From: Stenotrophomonas cyclobalanopsidis | GTDB taxonomy: Bacteria; Pseudomonadota; Gammaproteobacteria; Xanthomonadales; Xanthomonadaceae | Length of the DNA: 64,000 bases | NCBI RefSeq assembly: GCF_008710035.1 | Contig: NZ_VYKI01000012.1 | Coordinates: 13,330-77,329, forward strand | Reading direction: 5' to 3' | Shown: in pieces, positions 3,566 to 56,077 of the stretch | Layout: the number at the start of each line of letters is the position of its first letter | How positions within the stretch are numbered: position 1 is the stretch's first letter | The notes under the pieces: model-generated | What the model was told of the DNA's origin: nothing | What the model saw: the letters and a program-made list of their open reading frames with translations, nothing else | The model's database searches: none | Program-made: the position numbers and the translations under genes

Positions 3566-4936
3566 ATGCCCGCCAGCCCTGTTACGCCTGCCTCGTCTTC
3601 CCGCCTCGGCCATTCGCTGAAGCCGCGCCAGCTGATCATGATGGGCCTGGGCAGCGCGATCGGCGCCGGCCTGTTCCTCGGTTCCGGCGTGGGCGTGCAG
3701 GCGGCCGGTCCGGCCGTGCTGGTGTCCTATCTTGTCGCCGGCGCGCTGGTGATCATCGTGATGAACGCCCTGGGCGAAATGGCGGCGGCCAAGCCGACCA
3801 GCGGCGCGTTCTCGGTGTACGCGGCCGATGCCATGGGCGCCACCGCCGGTGCCACCGTGGGCTGGCTGTGGTGGGTGCAGCTGGTCATCGTCATCGCCGC
3901 CGAGGCGGTCGGTGCGGCCGGCCTGCTGGCCACGGTCTGGCCGGTGATACCGGTGCCGATGGCGGCGCTGGCCTTCATGCTGTTCTTCACCGCGATCAAC
4001 CTGCTCGGGGTGAAGAATTTCGGCGAGTTCGAATTCTGGTTCGCCATCCTCAAGGTGGCCGCCATCCTGGTCTTCATCGCCATCGGCATCGCCCTGCTGA
4101 TGGGCTGGCTGCCGCAGGTGGCCTCGCCGGGGCTGAGCAACTTCACCCAGCACGGCGGCTTCGCGCCCAAGGGCCTGGCCGGCATCGGCGCGGCCCTGCT
4201 GGTGGTGGTGTTTGCCTTCGGCGGCACCGAGATCGTGGCGGTGGCCGCGGCCGAGACCGAGGATCCCGAGCGCAGCATCGCCCGTGCCATCCGCACCGTG
4301 GCCTGGCGCATCCTGGTGTTCTACATCGGCTCGCTCAGCGTGATCATCGCGGTGGTGCCGTGGACCAGCGAATCGCTGAAGTCGCCGTTTGCCGCGGTGC
4401 TCGCGGTCGCCAACATCCCGGGCGCGGCCACGGCCATCACCCTGATCGCGGTGATCGCGCTGCTGTCGGCGCTCAATGCCAACCTCTACGGTGCCTCGCG
4501 CATGATCTATTCGCTGGCGCAGCGCCGTGAGGCACCGGCCGTGCTGGGCTGGACCGACCCGCGCCAGGTGCCGGTCATCGCCGTGCTGGCCAGCGTGCTG
4601 TTCGGTTTCGCCGCCACCATCATGGAGCTGCTGTTCCCAGGCAAGGTGCTGCCGGTGCTGCTGAACATCGTCGGCTCCACCTGCCTGCTGGTGTGGACGC
4701 TTTCGCTGGTTTCGCAGCTGGTGCTGCGCCGTCGTGCCGATCGCCTGGGCACCCGCCTGCCGTTCCGCATGGCCGGTTTCCCGTGGCTGACGGTGTGCGC
4801 GCTGGGCATTCTGGCGCTGATCTTCGGGCTGCTGCTGAGCGAGGCGCACACGCGTCTGCAGTTCCTGTCGATGGTGGTGCTGACCGCCGTCATCGCCGCC
4901 GGCAGCGCCATCGCCCGGCGCATGCGCGCAGCCTGA
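3566..4936 (+). CDS. APC-family amino acid permease
   Basis: Integral inner-membrane transporter of 456 residues with about twelve hydrophobic segments. The N-terminal family signature is clear: LKPRQLIMMGLGSAIGAGLF, with the glycine-rich substrate-binding break GSAIGAGLFLGSG in TM1, followed by GEMAAAKPTSGAFSVYA. AAAETEDPERSIARAIRTV is the conserved loop before TM7. It belongs to the AnsP/ProY/GabP/CycA group of proton-coupled amino acid permeases; the substrate cannot be read from the sequence. It stands alone, followed by a SMAG array and preceded by an 81-base gap. Confidence 0.88.
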   Translation: MPASPVTPASSSRLGHSLKPRQLIMMGLGSAIGAGLFLGSGVGVQAAGPAVLVSYLVAGALVIIVMNALGEMAAAKPTSGAFSVYAADAMGATAGATVGWLWWVQLVIVIAAEAVGAAGLLATVWPVIPVPMAALAFMLFFTAINLLGVKNFGEFEFWFAILKVAAILVFIAIGIALLMGWLPQVASPGLSNFTQHGGFAPKGLAGIGAALLVVVFAFGGTEIVAVAAAETEDPERSIARAIRTVAWRILVFYIGSLSVIIAVVPWTSESLKSPFAAVLAVANIPGAATAITLIAVIALLSALNANLYGASRMIYSLAQRREAPAVLGWTDPRQVPVIAVLASVLFGFAATIMELLFPGKVLPVLLNIVGSTCLLVWTLSLVSQLVLRRRADRLGTRLPFRMAGFPWLTVCALGILALIFGLLLSEAHTRLQFLSMVVLTAVIAAGSAIARRMRAA

Positions 4937-5238
4937 TCCTGTAGAGCCGACCCTACGGTCGGCTGCCGTTGCTGTGTCTTTGTAGAGCCGACCCTATGGT
5001 CGGCTGCTGTTGCTTTGGCTTTGTAGAGCCGACCCTACGGTCGGCTGCTGTTTGCGCAGACGTCAGCCGAGCATGGGCTCGGCTCTACAAGGGCAGCGTC
5101 CGGCAGCCGAGCATCGGCTCGGCTCTACAAGGGCAGCGCCCCTGAGCCGAGCATGGGCTCGGCTCTACAGGAGGCATACATCCGCCGTGCCATCCTGATC
5201 GCGTGGGCCGTCACCGGCCTGTCGAACAGGAGTGCCGC
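4937..5238. repeat. Array of six SMAG palindromes, three forward then three inverted
   Basis: The gene-free stretch is almost filled by six GTAG-type hairpins. Three forward units begin GTAGAGCCGACC at 4941, 4982 and 5023, about 41 bases apart. Three inverted units end GGCTCGGCTCTAC at 5088, 5128 and 5168, about 40 bases apart. Each is a ~23-base stem-loop with GTAG at one end, as described for SMAG repeats of S. maltophilia. The spacers within each half also resemble one another (TGCTTTGGCTTT type; AAGGGCAGCG type). The array could end transcripts of the upstream permease or stabilise their 3' ends. Nothing else is seen. Confidence 0.85.
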
Positions 5239-5731: not shown

Positions 5732-8599
<2,868 letters not shown>

Positions 8600-8669
8600 G
8601 GCGAAGGATCCGTCAGGAAAGGGCACACGCACGGGCACGAGCCGCCGGTTGGCGGTCTGCGGGGCGCCC

Positions 8670-8830
8670 CTCTGTCCTTTTGCCTGAGAGTTTAAAAGTG
8701 CGGCTGGCCGCAGCTTCGTGCCCCTTCGGCGCCGGATCGAACCGGTCTCTCCAGAGTTCTGTTACGGGTGGTATCGGGCCTGAGCGATTACGGGCGTTGC
8801 GCCTTCGGCAGCGGTGTTCCGCTTCTCCCA
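8670..8830 (-). promoter_or_regulatory. Tandem glycine riboswitch in the gcvP leader
   Basis: Read on the minus strand, two glycine aptamers follow one another. The first runs from GGGAGAAGCGG through GCCGAAGGCGCAAC to CGCTCAGGCCCGATACC. The second runs from TGGAGAGACCGG through GCCGAAGGGGCACGAAGC to CTCTCAGGCAAAAGGACAGA. The GCCGAAGG core and the CTCAGG...AAAGGACAGAG 3' end are diagnostic of the glycine riboswitch. The leader then runs about 70 bases to the gcvP ATG and contains GC-rich inverted sequence that could be the expression platform. In this family glycine binding usually turns cleavage genes on. Confidence 0.95.
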
Positions 8831-12880: not shown

Positions 12881-13351
12881 GGGCGGTCCTTGGGTGGTGA
12901 ACGACGGCCGAAGGCTAGTGGGCGCGCGTGCCTACCGCAAGTGGGGAAAGTTGGTGGGGGGCGGCAGGGCTGCGCCCTGCACCCGCAGAGGCGAAGGCAA
13001 CGTCAACGTCAAAAGTGGGCTGTCCGTGGGTCACCGCCCCACCTTCGACAGGTTCACGCGGCTGTTGTTAGGTGCCGACCAACGGTCGGCACCCACCAAC
13101 AGCAGCGGAAATCGGCACCCACCAGAGCAGAACACCGTTCCGACAGATCGCGGGAAACTGTCGAAGGCGGGGTGGGTCCGGTTGAGGGGGGGGAGCGCCA
13201 TGGATGGCGCGACCAAGCCTCCATGGAAGGACTTACGGCGTCCCCCTCAACCGGACCCACCCCGCCAACCCTCAGCAAACCGGCTTTTGACGTTGACGTT
13301 GACGTTGATTCTGCAGGTGCAGGGCTGCAAGCCCTGCCAGAACACCTCCCC
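12881..13351. other. Gene-free stretch filled by a composite palindromic repeat
   Basis: No credible gene lies here. From 12963 to 13338 the sequence is a chain of inverted repeats: an outer hairpin (GGCAGGGCTGCGCCCTGC, 12963-12980), AACGTC direct repeats, a GTGCCGACC hairpin near 13071-13092, the 101-base long palindrome at 13166-13266, TTGACG direct repeats around 13287-13309, and an outer hairpin (GCAGGGCTGCAAGCCCTGC, about 13319-13338). The two ends are inverted relative to each other. The same architecture recurs at 39008-39531. Confidence 0.75.
13166..13266. repeat. Long palindrome, copy A
   Basis: Arms at 13166-13190 and 13242-13266 are perfect 25-base reverse complements (left arm begins GGCGGGGTGGGTCCGG). 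The central ~50 bases carry the conserved core in inverted orientation, with the inner stem GCGCCATGGATGGCGC. Arms are identical to copy C at 39075-39176, while the core is turned round. Confidence 0.85.
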
Positions 13352-27055: not shown

Positions 27056-27761
27056 GCGGGCGTTCTCGCTGGCAGGGATCAAGGGCGCCAGCATGGCATG
27101 CGGTCGTGGCGGGCACATGCCCCATGCGGGTAACAGGCTGTTCCGTAGCGTCGAGCTTGCTCGACTGGGTTCCGGCCAACGGCGCAGCCCCTCGTGGCTG
27201 GTCGATCGGTAGAGTCGACTGTTAGTCGACTGGCGCTGAGGTTTGCCGGGCGCGTCAGCCACGGAAGAGAAAAAGGAAAATCAACATCAAACGCCGGTGG
27301 CTTCGCTCGCATCCACGCAGGCGTGCCAACGGCGCAGCCCCTCGTGGCTGGTCGATCGGTAGAGTCGACTGTTAGTCGACTGGCGCTGAGGTTTGCCGGA
27401 CGGGTGGGCTGCGCAGGGGACGCTGCAAGTACGTCCGTGTAAGCTCGGTCGCCGCATCCATGCGGCTCACGCCCCTGCGCAACCCACCCGCCCGGCCCCC
27501 GACAGTTTCCGGGCGCGTCAGCCACGGAAAAGAAAAAGGAAAATCAACATCAAACGCCGGTCGCTTCGCTCGCATCCACGCAGGCGTGGACCAAGCGTGT
27601 CGACCAAGGTCGACACCTACCGCAGCGGGGTTACCCGCCCACACCGCCCCGCCCAACAAACAGAAAAGCCAGAGCCGGCTGTTGCTCCGGCTTCAGGAGC
27701 AGTCGAGCAAGCTCGACTCTACGGGGCGGCGGGTGCCGGGCCGCAGGCCCGGCCGACACAT
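27056..27761. other. Gene-free stretch of direct repeats, GTAG hairpins and long palindrome copy B
   Basis: No credible gene in 706 bases. GTAG-type palindromes lie at about 27145-27168, 27209-27232, 27359-27382, 27597-27620 and 27701-27722. A ~70-base segment (GGCGCAGCCCCTCGTGGCTG...) occurs at 27181-27250 and again at 27331-27400. A ~85-base segment (CGCGTCAGCCACGGAAgAGAAAAAGG...) occurs at 27250-27330 and again at 27514-27596. Between these lies long palindrome copy B. The stretch looks like repeated partial duplication of a composite repeat. Confidence 0.8.
27401..27490. repeat. Long palindrome, copy B
   Basis: Arms at 27401-27419 (CGGGTGGGCTGCGCAGGGG) and 27472-27490 pair over 19 bases with one mismatch. 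The core is GACGCTGCAAGTACGTCC followed by the inner stem GCCGCATCCATGCGGC. Confidence 0.85.
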
Positions 27762-38993: not shown

Positions 38994-39074
38994 GGGGGAG
39001 GGTGTCCGGCAGGGCTTGCAGCCCTGCACCTGCTTCAAGCCAGAGCAACAGCAGAAGCTGGTTTCCTGAGGGGA

Positions 39075-39176
39075 GGCGGGGTGGGTCCGGTTGAGGGGGA
39101 CGCTGCAAGTACGTCCCTGTAAGCTCGGTCGCCGCATCCATGCGGCTCACGCCCCCTCAACCGGACCCACCCCGCC
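39075..39176. repeat. Long palindrome, copy C
   Basis: Arms at 39075-39099 and 39152-39176 are perfect 25-base reverse complements, identical to those of copy A. Core GACGCTGCAAGTACGTCC, then GCTCGGTC and inner stem GCCGCATCCATGCGGC. Confidence 0.9.
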
Positions 39177-39243
39177 TTCGACAGTTTCCGCGAGCTGTCG
39201 GAACGGCAATCTGATCTGGTGGGTGTCGACCGTTGGTCGATAC

Positions 39244-39282
39244 GGGGTCGGATCCCGTTGCTTCGCAACGGGCTCTGACCCC
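39244..39282. repeat. GGGGTC...GACCCC hairpin repeat
   Basis: GGGGTCgGAtCCCGTTGC / GCAACGGGcTCtGACCCC forms a long near-perfect stem with a small TTC loop. Related hairpins occur at 21903-21941 and 43713-43741. Its right flank (AGAATTTCGATATCTGACAG) resembles that at 21942-21962. Confidence 0.8.
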
Positions 39283-39357
39283 AGAAGAATTTCGATATCT
39301 GACAGATGTGCCGACCAACGGTCGGCACCCACCGACAGCCACCGGCGAACTGTCGAA

Positions 39358-39459
39358 GGCGGGGCACTGTGGGTTTGCGGGGTGTGAGCCGCATGGATGC
39401 GGCGACCAAGGCTACATGGACGTACTTGCGCCGTCCCCGCAAACCCACAGTGCCCCGCC
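39358..39459. repeat. Long palindrome, copy D
   Basis: Arms at 39358-39382 (begins GGCGGGGCACTGTGGG) and 39435-39459 are perfect 25-base reverse complements, but their sequence differs from copy C in most of the inner part. The core is the same as in C, inverted, with inner stem GCCGCATGGATGCGGC. Confidence 0.9.
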
Positions 39460-39541
39460 ATCCCACGGAATGCAGGCTTTTGACGTTGCTCTGGCTCTAG
39501 CTTTGGCAGGTGCAGGGCTGCAAGCCCTGCCGACCCATCCC

Positions 39542-55866: not shown

Positions 55867-55926
55867 GCGGCCAACGGCGAAGCCCCTCGTGGTGGTCGTG
55901 CGGCATCTGCATCGTTGGCGGGCCTC

Positions 55927-56018
55927 GCGGGTGGGTTGCGCAGGGGACGCCGTGAATACGTCCTTGTAGGCTCGAGCGCGCCATCCATGGCGCTTACGCC
56001 CCTGCGCAACCCACCCGC
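55927..56018. repeat. Long palindrome, copy E
   Basis: Arms at 55927-55946 (GCGGGTGGGTTGCGCAGGGG) and 55999-56018 are perfect 20-base reverse complements. Core GACGCCGTGAATACGTCC, inner stem GCGCCATCCATGGCGC. It shares the arm class of copy B but the inner stem class of copy A. Confidence 0.88.
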
Positions 56019-56077
56019 GCGGCCCCGGACGGTTTCCGGGCGCGTCCACCACGGAATCAACGGAAGGCCAGAAGCAG

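Follow-up and report, generated by a model that had tools for sequence, protein, structure and literature searches.

A dispersed, transposon-like palindromic repeat of Stenotrophomonas and other gammaproteobacterial genera as a probable TwoAYGGAY-type RNA with putative CsrA/RsmA-binding loops

The decoy RNAs of the Csr and Rsm systems, CsrB/CsrC and RsmX/Y/Z, are single genes in which many GGA-hairpin sites are gathered on one RNA. Repeats of the ERIC and YPAL type are intergenic, imperfect and MITE-like palindromes of about 100-170 bp, among which we know of none with CsrA-type loops or a class-wide conserved core. The closest described relative of the element treated here is TwoAYGGAY, a candidate RNA from human gut, gamma-Proteobacteria and Clostridiales, and the proposal that its RNAs bind CsrA is reportedly due to Gardner and Eldai. 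Since 2010 TwoAYGGAY has stood as a candidate whose function is unknown, and the only functional proposal that we found, in the accessible part of its source, is CsrA binding on the basis of its motif (PMC4333381); the same source describes tandem GAs within a stem and weak conservation of the outer stem. It was listed as a probable RNA that is probably not cis-regulatory (Weinberg et al. 2010, PMC2864571), unlike the type label Cis-reg that its Rfam family, RF01731, carries. A further RsmA-binding small RNA, RsmU of the related genus Xanthomonas, is processed from a 3'-UTR in X. campestris; it comes from one mRNA and is reported to be limited to Xanthomonas, and the available text describes no palindromic repeat (PMC7694677). 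Finally, the SMAG/REP/BIME repeats are intergenic palindromes of Stenotrophomonas whose REP units, in the accessible parts of the sources, measure 20-40 bp and have a GTAG or CGTC end (PMC2613905, PMC3733652).

The DNA analysed here, referred to as the window, is a stretch of 64,000 nucleotides from Stenotrophomonas cyclobalanopsidis. A preliminary description had reported five long palindromes in it, and all five are found where it placed them, as copies of a 102-nt element in which a long outer stem, P1, encloses two hairpins, P2 and P3. The arms pair perfectly over 25 bp in copies A, C and D and over 20 bp in copy E, and the single mismatch of copy B is a G.U on the GGA-bearing (RNA) strand. 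The features are as follows.

13166-13266, RNA strand plus: copy A, complete element; P1 of 25 bp, P2 class GCGCCAT
27395-27496, RNA strand minus: copy B, element with type II arms (GCCGGGCGGGTGGGTTGCGCAGGGG)
39008-39027, no strand: flanking palindrome H1 (GGCAGGGCTTGCAGCCCTGC), left outer end of the C/D composite
39075-39176, RNA strand minus: copy C, element
39152-39176, minus: copy C, 5' arm of P1, pairing with 39075-39099
39127-39150, minus: copy C, hairpin P2; loop AUGGAU at 39136-39141, closed by C-G
39102-39124, minus: copy C, hairpin P3; loop AGGGAC at 39113-39118, closed by C-G, with the 3'-side bulge CUUGC
39075-39099, minus: copy C, 3' arm of P1
39177-39357, no strand: C/D spacer, containing short REP-like palindromes
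39358-39459, RNA strand plus: copy D, element; loops at 39393-39398 and 39416-39421
39512-39531, no strand: flanking palindrome H1', right outer end of the C/D composite
55922-56023, RNA strand minus: copy E, element with type II arms, P2 class GCGCCAT

On the RNA strand the element reads P1 (20-25 bp), GUGAG, P2, a CGACCRA joint, P3 and the return of P1, and the RNA is predicted to fold into a three-way junction with two hairpins; the folds of the window elements are very stable, and the core of copy A is one base shorter. P2 has the form GCCGC-AUGGAU-GCGGC, and the exchange of its stem from GCCGCAT to GCGCCAT, noticed earlier, is real and is joined by further classes such as GCGGCAT. P3, which was missing from the preliminary description with its two helices P1 and P2, has the form GCY-UAC-ANGGAC-GUA followed by a 5-nt bulge on the 3' side and RGC, with the pair variants GCU/AGC, GGC/GCC and GCC/GGC and also UAC/GUA versus UCC/GGA. 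Most Stenotrophomonas copies have tandem GA/GA at positions 29-30/47-48, where standard pairs stand instead in most of 26 elements from other genera; in these 26 the junction and bulge bases beyond the loops are likewise conserved.

Copy D is the inverted partner of copy C, with different arms, and the composite runs from a gene end through H1, hexamer-like repeats, C, REP-like units, D, repeats and H1' to another gene end. The hexamer-like runs (CAACGT/CAACAGC) between H1 and the element lie at 39028-39070 in the window and also in the left flanks of type I copies elsewhere in the same genome. Among adjacent elements no more than 900 bp apart, a set drawn mainly from Stenotrophomonas, 68 of 68 pairs point outward. 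This geometry is not a universal rule, as a same-direction pair in genome G127 (L214) and a same-strand pair in G406 testify. We also considered that the difference between arms insulates the partners from one another; two of 56 pairs have arms at least 80% identical, against 13.5% in random left-right draws (p=0.03), a weak statistic because orthologues are not independent. Five same-strand elements in tandem, spaced 227-229 bp apart, occur at G602:C1:94419-95431 and resemble a multi-site decoy gene.

The genome that holds the window gives 41 BLAST matches to the core, and a finer pass over fetched stretches yields 48 distinct copy sequences, some of them truncated by contig ends. Many contigs of this genome end in or near the palindromes (L002, L003, L007, L009, L011, L020, L023, L031 and L037), and draft assemblies may for this reason undercount the elements. 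Four of the 48 sequences carry about 80 nt of inserted DNA within the P2 loop. This insert (L027, L031 and L039, and also L202 of genome G036) brings further hairpins, two of which have, by eye, AGGA loops in the RNA sense, as if the element gained GGA hairpins. A different small palindromic insert breaks the core in L193 and L198, in L193 within the P3 loop after CAUGG. Over the 48 sequences the arm class and the core class assort independently, as had been proposed from five copies. Copy C has no match at E<=1e-5 in plasmid and phage collections.

All three helices covary in alignments that reach beyond the window. For the 33 of 48 copies with complete arms and no insert, after removal of duplicates, 99.0% of pair cells are standard and both sides have changed at 23 of 38 pairs; covariation scores 0.522, whereas sliding the partners yields no more than 0.084 and shuffling no more than 0.125, which excludes chance repeats, as the preliminary description had argued. 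The cross-genus alignment comprises 28 sequences, namely copy C, one Idiomarina copy and 26 elements from 25 genomes outside Stenotrophomonas, these being the ones of exactly 102 nt among 29 matches (L223, L233 and L238 were dropped for length). Here 97.4% of cells are paired, both sides have changed at 36 of 39 pairs (25 of 25 in P1, seven of eight in P2, four of six in P3), and the score is 0.960 against at most 0.169 for slid partners. The covariance model used for the search, R1, was built from Stenotrophomonas copies with their structure, so that the sample leans towards elements that pair; given the size of the controls, this bias is unlikely to have caused the covariation. There is strong support for selection on a structured nucleic acid, and cores have visibly been exchanged between arm classes.

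In the accessible part of its source, a high-affinity Csr/Rsm site is an ANGGAX hexaloop placed directly on a stem (PMC4005645), and the element fits this definition in 26 of 26 elements from other genera and in 31 of the 33 aligned copies from the window's genome. Both loops of all 26 read C-A-N-GGA-N-G and vary at the N positions only, with U13 G11 A2 and U18 C5 A3 in P2 and G15 U10 A1 and U12 C11 G2 A1 in P3, so that the loops are ANGGAN and the Y positions of AYGGAY are not strictly Y. The two exceptions at home are AUUGAU in P2 of one copy and AGGAAC in P3 of another. As the loop sequence is part of R1, elements with an altered GGA score lower, are under-sampled and may be missed. In genome G127, copies whose arms are near-identical vary mainly at the loop N positions, and in L162 E1 the stems differ while both C-AUGGAU-G loops are kept.

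With its two AYGGAY-type hairpin loops and weakly conserved outer stem, and the tandem GA of most Stenotrophomonas copies, the element resembles TwoAYGGAY, and RF01731 matches on the same strand at L301 (46.0 bits) and L227 (44.0 bits), above the gathering threshold of 43, and at L240 (40.4 bits). The preliminary description had recognised no named family, and had allowed that a match to a described one would count against its claim; such a match is now partly at hand. Its statement holds for the window copies, which stay below threshold, but RF01731 must now be regarded as a candidate, with two of 19 scanned element-bearing loci above its gathering threshold and a third close. The other 17 fall below it, 16 without a match at E<=0.1, and Idiomarina L111, scanned alone, reaches 31.2 bits. 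The window's own genome gives seven RF01731 matches, the best of 36.1 bits and all under the cut-off, and two of these, when fetched, score 93.2 and 91.1 bits with R1. Taken together, it is very probable that the element is a structured RNA of the TwoAYGGAY type; we would have put this as nearly certain, and hold it somewhat less firmly because of the 17 loci under the threshold. A low-threshold Rfam scan of the C/D region found miRNA-like and other chance matches and no TwoAYGGAY at E<=1, so the window copies alone would have hidden the kinship. At gathering threshold the only Rfam match in the window is a glycine riboswitch (RF00504, 62.7 bits) at 8662-8764 on the minus strand, just 5' of a minus-strand gene at 5732-8638 (968 aa).

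Compared with the other systems, the element is set apart by its form. From TwoAYGGAY as described it differs in its dispersal in many copies, the drift of its arms, its inverted pairs, its turnover and its ANGGAN loops, and it is this mobile-looking, high-turnover form of a known candidate RNA that is new. It shares GGA hairpins with CsrB/CsrC and RsmX/Y/Z, but it offers two sites per copy in tens of copies. RF01731 and CsrB both belong to Rfam clan CL00106 (E. coli CsrB was scanned as a control), and RF00166 (RsmZ), the one decoy family covered in the window's genome, has no match there above its cut-off. REP-like units lie between the paired elements, and a REP/SMAG-like palindrome cluster of alternating orientation (GTAGAGCCGACC...) lies at 4933-5169 of the window; the element itself, with a 102-nt unit, a three-way junction and arms that have no common GTAG or CGTC end, is not of the REP/SMAG kind, whose much smaller size had been pointed out before. 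A search of the open-access literature, outside which most subscription papers lie, found no description of the repeat family.

Whether the structured molecule is RNA or DNA had been left open, and the wobble pairs now favour RNA of one defined strand. Across 166 distinct arm pairs of 20 bp each, included if they had 14 of 18 Watson-Crick pairs and the loop pattern, 3102 cells are Watson-Crick, 98 are other mismatches, and the GGA strand shows 99 G.U against 21 A.C; as related copies are not independent, p-values are only a guide here. Inverted pairs show the bias in both of their opposite members, at 22:5 and 20:4, so it is tied to the orientation of the element rather than to the chromosome; the cross-genus ratio is 10:1. 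The same sign would arise from a strand bias of C-to-T mutation due to transcription of the GGA strand, and in that case too the strand would be transcribed. The remaining alternative for the polarity is a hairpin of strand-specific single-stranded DNA.

The elements are widespread and patchy. The core is present in 46 of 61 genomes sampled from the genus, and R1 finds the element in 35 genomes and 15 genera of the family sample (149 genomes, 54 genera), in 65 genomes and 57 genera of the class sample (369 genomes, 271 genera) and in 28 genomes of the phylum sample (398 genomes), which all belong to the same class (for 350 genomes there is no class breakdown). Copy numbers per genome in these samples are lower bounds where they reach 10, 15 or 27, and weak matches are lost in large samples. 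Among the matches listed in a pattern scan, the named carriers that R1 confirms include Idiomarina aquatica and metagenome-assembled genomes labelled Idiomarina, Chromatiaceae and Sedimenticola, and further listed copies lie in named, cultured S. maltophilia strains; a Bacillota metagenome-assembled genome matched by the pattern (L157) was not confirmed by R1. CsrA is encoded in the window's genome. In the class sample it is found (PF02599, E<=0.001) in 60 of 65 carriers and in 253 of 304 non-carriers, a difference that is not significant (p=0.085). Carrier G255, 98% complete and with nine element matches, has no CsrA above the cut-off even at E<=10, only a weak sub-threshold fragment, and four less complete carriers (G401, G129, G160 and G068) have no CsrA match either. 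These carriers, the loci under the RF01731 threshold and the two loop exceptions speak against the reading as a CsrA-binding RNA.

The alternative that survives best, though we consider it improbable, is that of a non-autonomous mobile DNA element, in which an HUH (RAYT-like) transposase would recognise hairpins of single-stranded DNA from the GGA strand, with the core serving as a recombination signal. Tens of copies with so patchy a distribution are what it would predict, and a strand-specific DNA hairpin would likewise give G.T polarity on one strand. The same is true of turnover. Five loci (four in G864, one in G891) were each checked in two congeners. The flanks align in 10 of 10 cases, and an intact element is missing from the orthologous position every time; at L314, L322 and L323 the aligned flanks are separated by about 1.1 kb of different sequence, L316 shows a weak 21.7-bit match there that is perhaps a remnant, and L317 has a 32.4-bit match elsewhere in the locus. 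With at least 26 copies in G864 and at least 25 in G891, sites must be gained or lost quickly. Of the carriers, 58 of 65 also have a RAYT-like gene (NF047646, E<=0.001), as against 194 of 304 non-carriers (p=3e-5), counts that take in genes under the family's curated cut-off (252 versus 160 of 369 genomes). Seven carriers, among them G139 and G363 with at least 10 elements each, have no RAYT-like match at all, so RAYT is associated with the element and not required to move it, and a linked RAYT gene, which the preliminary description had suggested looking for, did not emerge. Genome size confounds the associations with both CsrA and RAYT, and neither is decisive. Furthermore, the cross-genus elements have no common end sequence, and the loop positions that vary are just the N positions of the CsrA motif, both of which count against this alternative.

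Orthologous sites of the C/D composite within the genus were located by a neighbour gene. This gene is present in 61 of 61 sampled genomes, and the best 30 of these by similarity, the window's genome included, were compared. At 17 of the 30 loci both elements can still be recognised, with small inserts in the P3 or P2 loop at two of these (L193, L202); an insertion sequence lies inside an element in three (L184 and L190, PF01527; L185, IS110-type, PF02371), one or both elements are lost in four (L192, L194, L196, L201), five reach a contig end, and L208 shows no element. We do not take L194, which lacks the composite, as proof of its insertion, since its palindromic H1 copies may have recombined to leave a deletion.

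An ordinary 3'-end structure, that is, a bidirectional terminator or a stabiliser of mRNA as proposed for REP-type repeats, in which the GGA loops would be incidental, is very unlikely, even if the surroundings of the element and its very stable folds invite the idea. The preliminary description placed the copies between genes, and indeed none of the 48 copy sequences overlaps a called gene (gene positions come from a home-made caller) and every window copy lies 3' of at least one gene. Co-oriented left genes in Stenotrophomonas end 55-97 bp ahead of the element in 22 of 24 cases. For the reading as a transcribed RNA it is a difficulty that, of the 44 Stenotrophomonas copies with a called left neighbour, 24 have their RNA strand antisense to it. 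In other genera the upstream neighbour lies on the same strand in 37 of 59 cases and the downstream neighbour is convergent in 47 of 69, as judged by a crude ORF caller that placed 34 of 72 elements over an ORF of at least 80 aa, probably spuriously. A terminator or stabiliser, however, needs neither C-A-N-GGA-N-G in both loops of 26 of 26 elements nor a conserved junction, and the Stenotrophomonas flanks examined have no U-tract after the palindromes.

The arms of the element have drifted far. Over the 22 bp nearest the core, their median identity within each of G367, G149, G298 and G380 is 41-55%, although one pair in G298 reaches 95%. So strong a divergence led us to consider insertion of the core into pre-existing palindromes, but as a general rule G864 argues against this, since its five copies have partly related flanks and related arms that diverge by compensatory change. 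In these five close copies 11 of 28 P1 pairs vary, nine by Watson-Crick changes on both sides and two to G.U, with none broken. Set beside the nearly identical cores within G367, we read this as free compensatory drift of the arms combined with constraint, or gene conversion, of the core. An outer inverted repeat (GCGAGAAATCTGCTTT / AAAGCAGATTTCTCGC in L321) encloses the palindrome in L321 and L315 of G864; it differs between copies and is mostly still paired, and the mobile unit may be about 200 bp. That complementarity is kept by DNA copying between the arms (template switching at quasi-palindromes) and not by selection seems very unlikely, for although double transversions (A-U to C-G) are common in the P1 arms and the cores of G367 are nearly identical while its arms are 55% alike (median), such copying predicts no bias of the residual pairs to G.U on one strand in both orientations, and P2 and P3 covary likewise over short stems.

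We favour, with moderate confidence, the reading of the element as a transposon-like repeat that is at the same time a TwoAYGGAY-type RNA with putative CsrA/RsmA-binding loops. Each palindrome would be a copy of a dispersed repeat, and a transcript of its GGA strand would fold into the three-way junction, with P1 little constrained in sequence beyond its pairing. P2 and P3 would each present a C-A-N-GGA-N-G hexaloop, and a CsrA/RsmA dimer would most likely be held through both; that the RNA binds CsrA/RsmA is, judging from its loops, a reasonably probable prediction, and among possible functions the one with most support. The intergenic copies, often 3' of genes, could act as decoys or as CsrA-dependent 3'-UTR elements, and P1 is a plausible substrate for RNase III, whose cleavage could release the junction from longer transcripts. 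That the net effect of the elements is titration of CsrA/RsmA as a decoy is a more tentative prediction, somewhat doubtful on sequence evidence. The conserved junction and bulge bases exceed the needs of a plain decoy, and patchy distribution and turnover would fit a selfish element too.

For TwoAYGGAY, the analysis adds hosts in 57 of the 271 genera of the class sample, a defined strand, a sharper loop consensus and, in one genome alone, 48 distinct copies; with copies also at hand in cultured S. maltophilia, the CsrA hypothesis becomes directly testable. Homologues of CsrB/C or RsmX/Y/Z are reported to be absent from Xanthomonas in the accessible parts of two sources (PMC7286519, PMC7694677), and the elements are candidates for the missing CsrA/RsmA antagonist in this bacterial family. 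The data also suggest that regulator-binding RNA may be spread by a transposon-like repeat. A bolder proposal, which we regard as rather unlikely, is that a protein-free mobile repeat carries CsrA/RsmA decoys as its cargo and that its copies jointly form the missing equivalent of CsrB/RsmZ in Stenotrophomonas and in dozens of other gammaproteobacterial genera. If this were true, each insertion would add two regulator-binding hairpins, and a selfish repeat would set the activity of a global post-transcriptional regulator.
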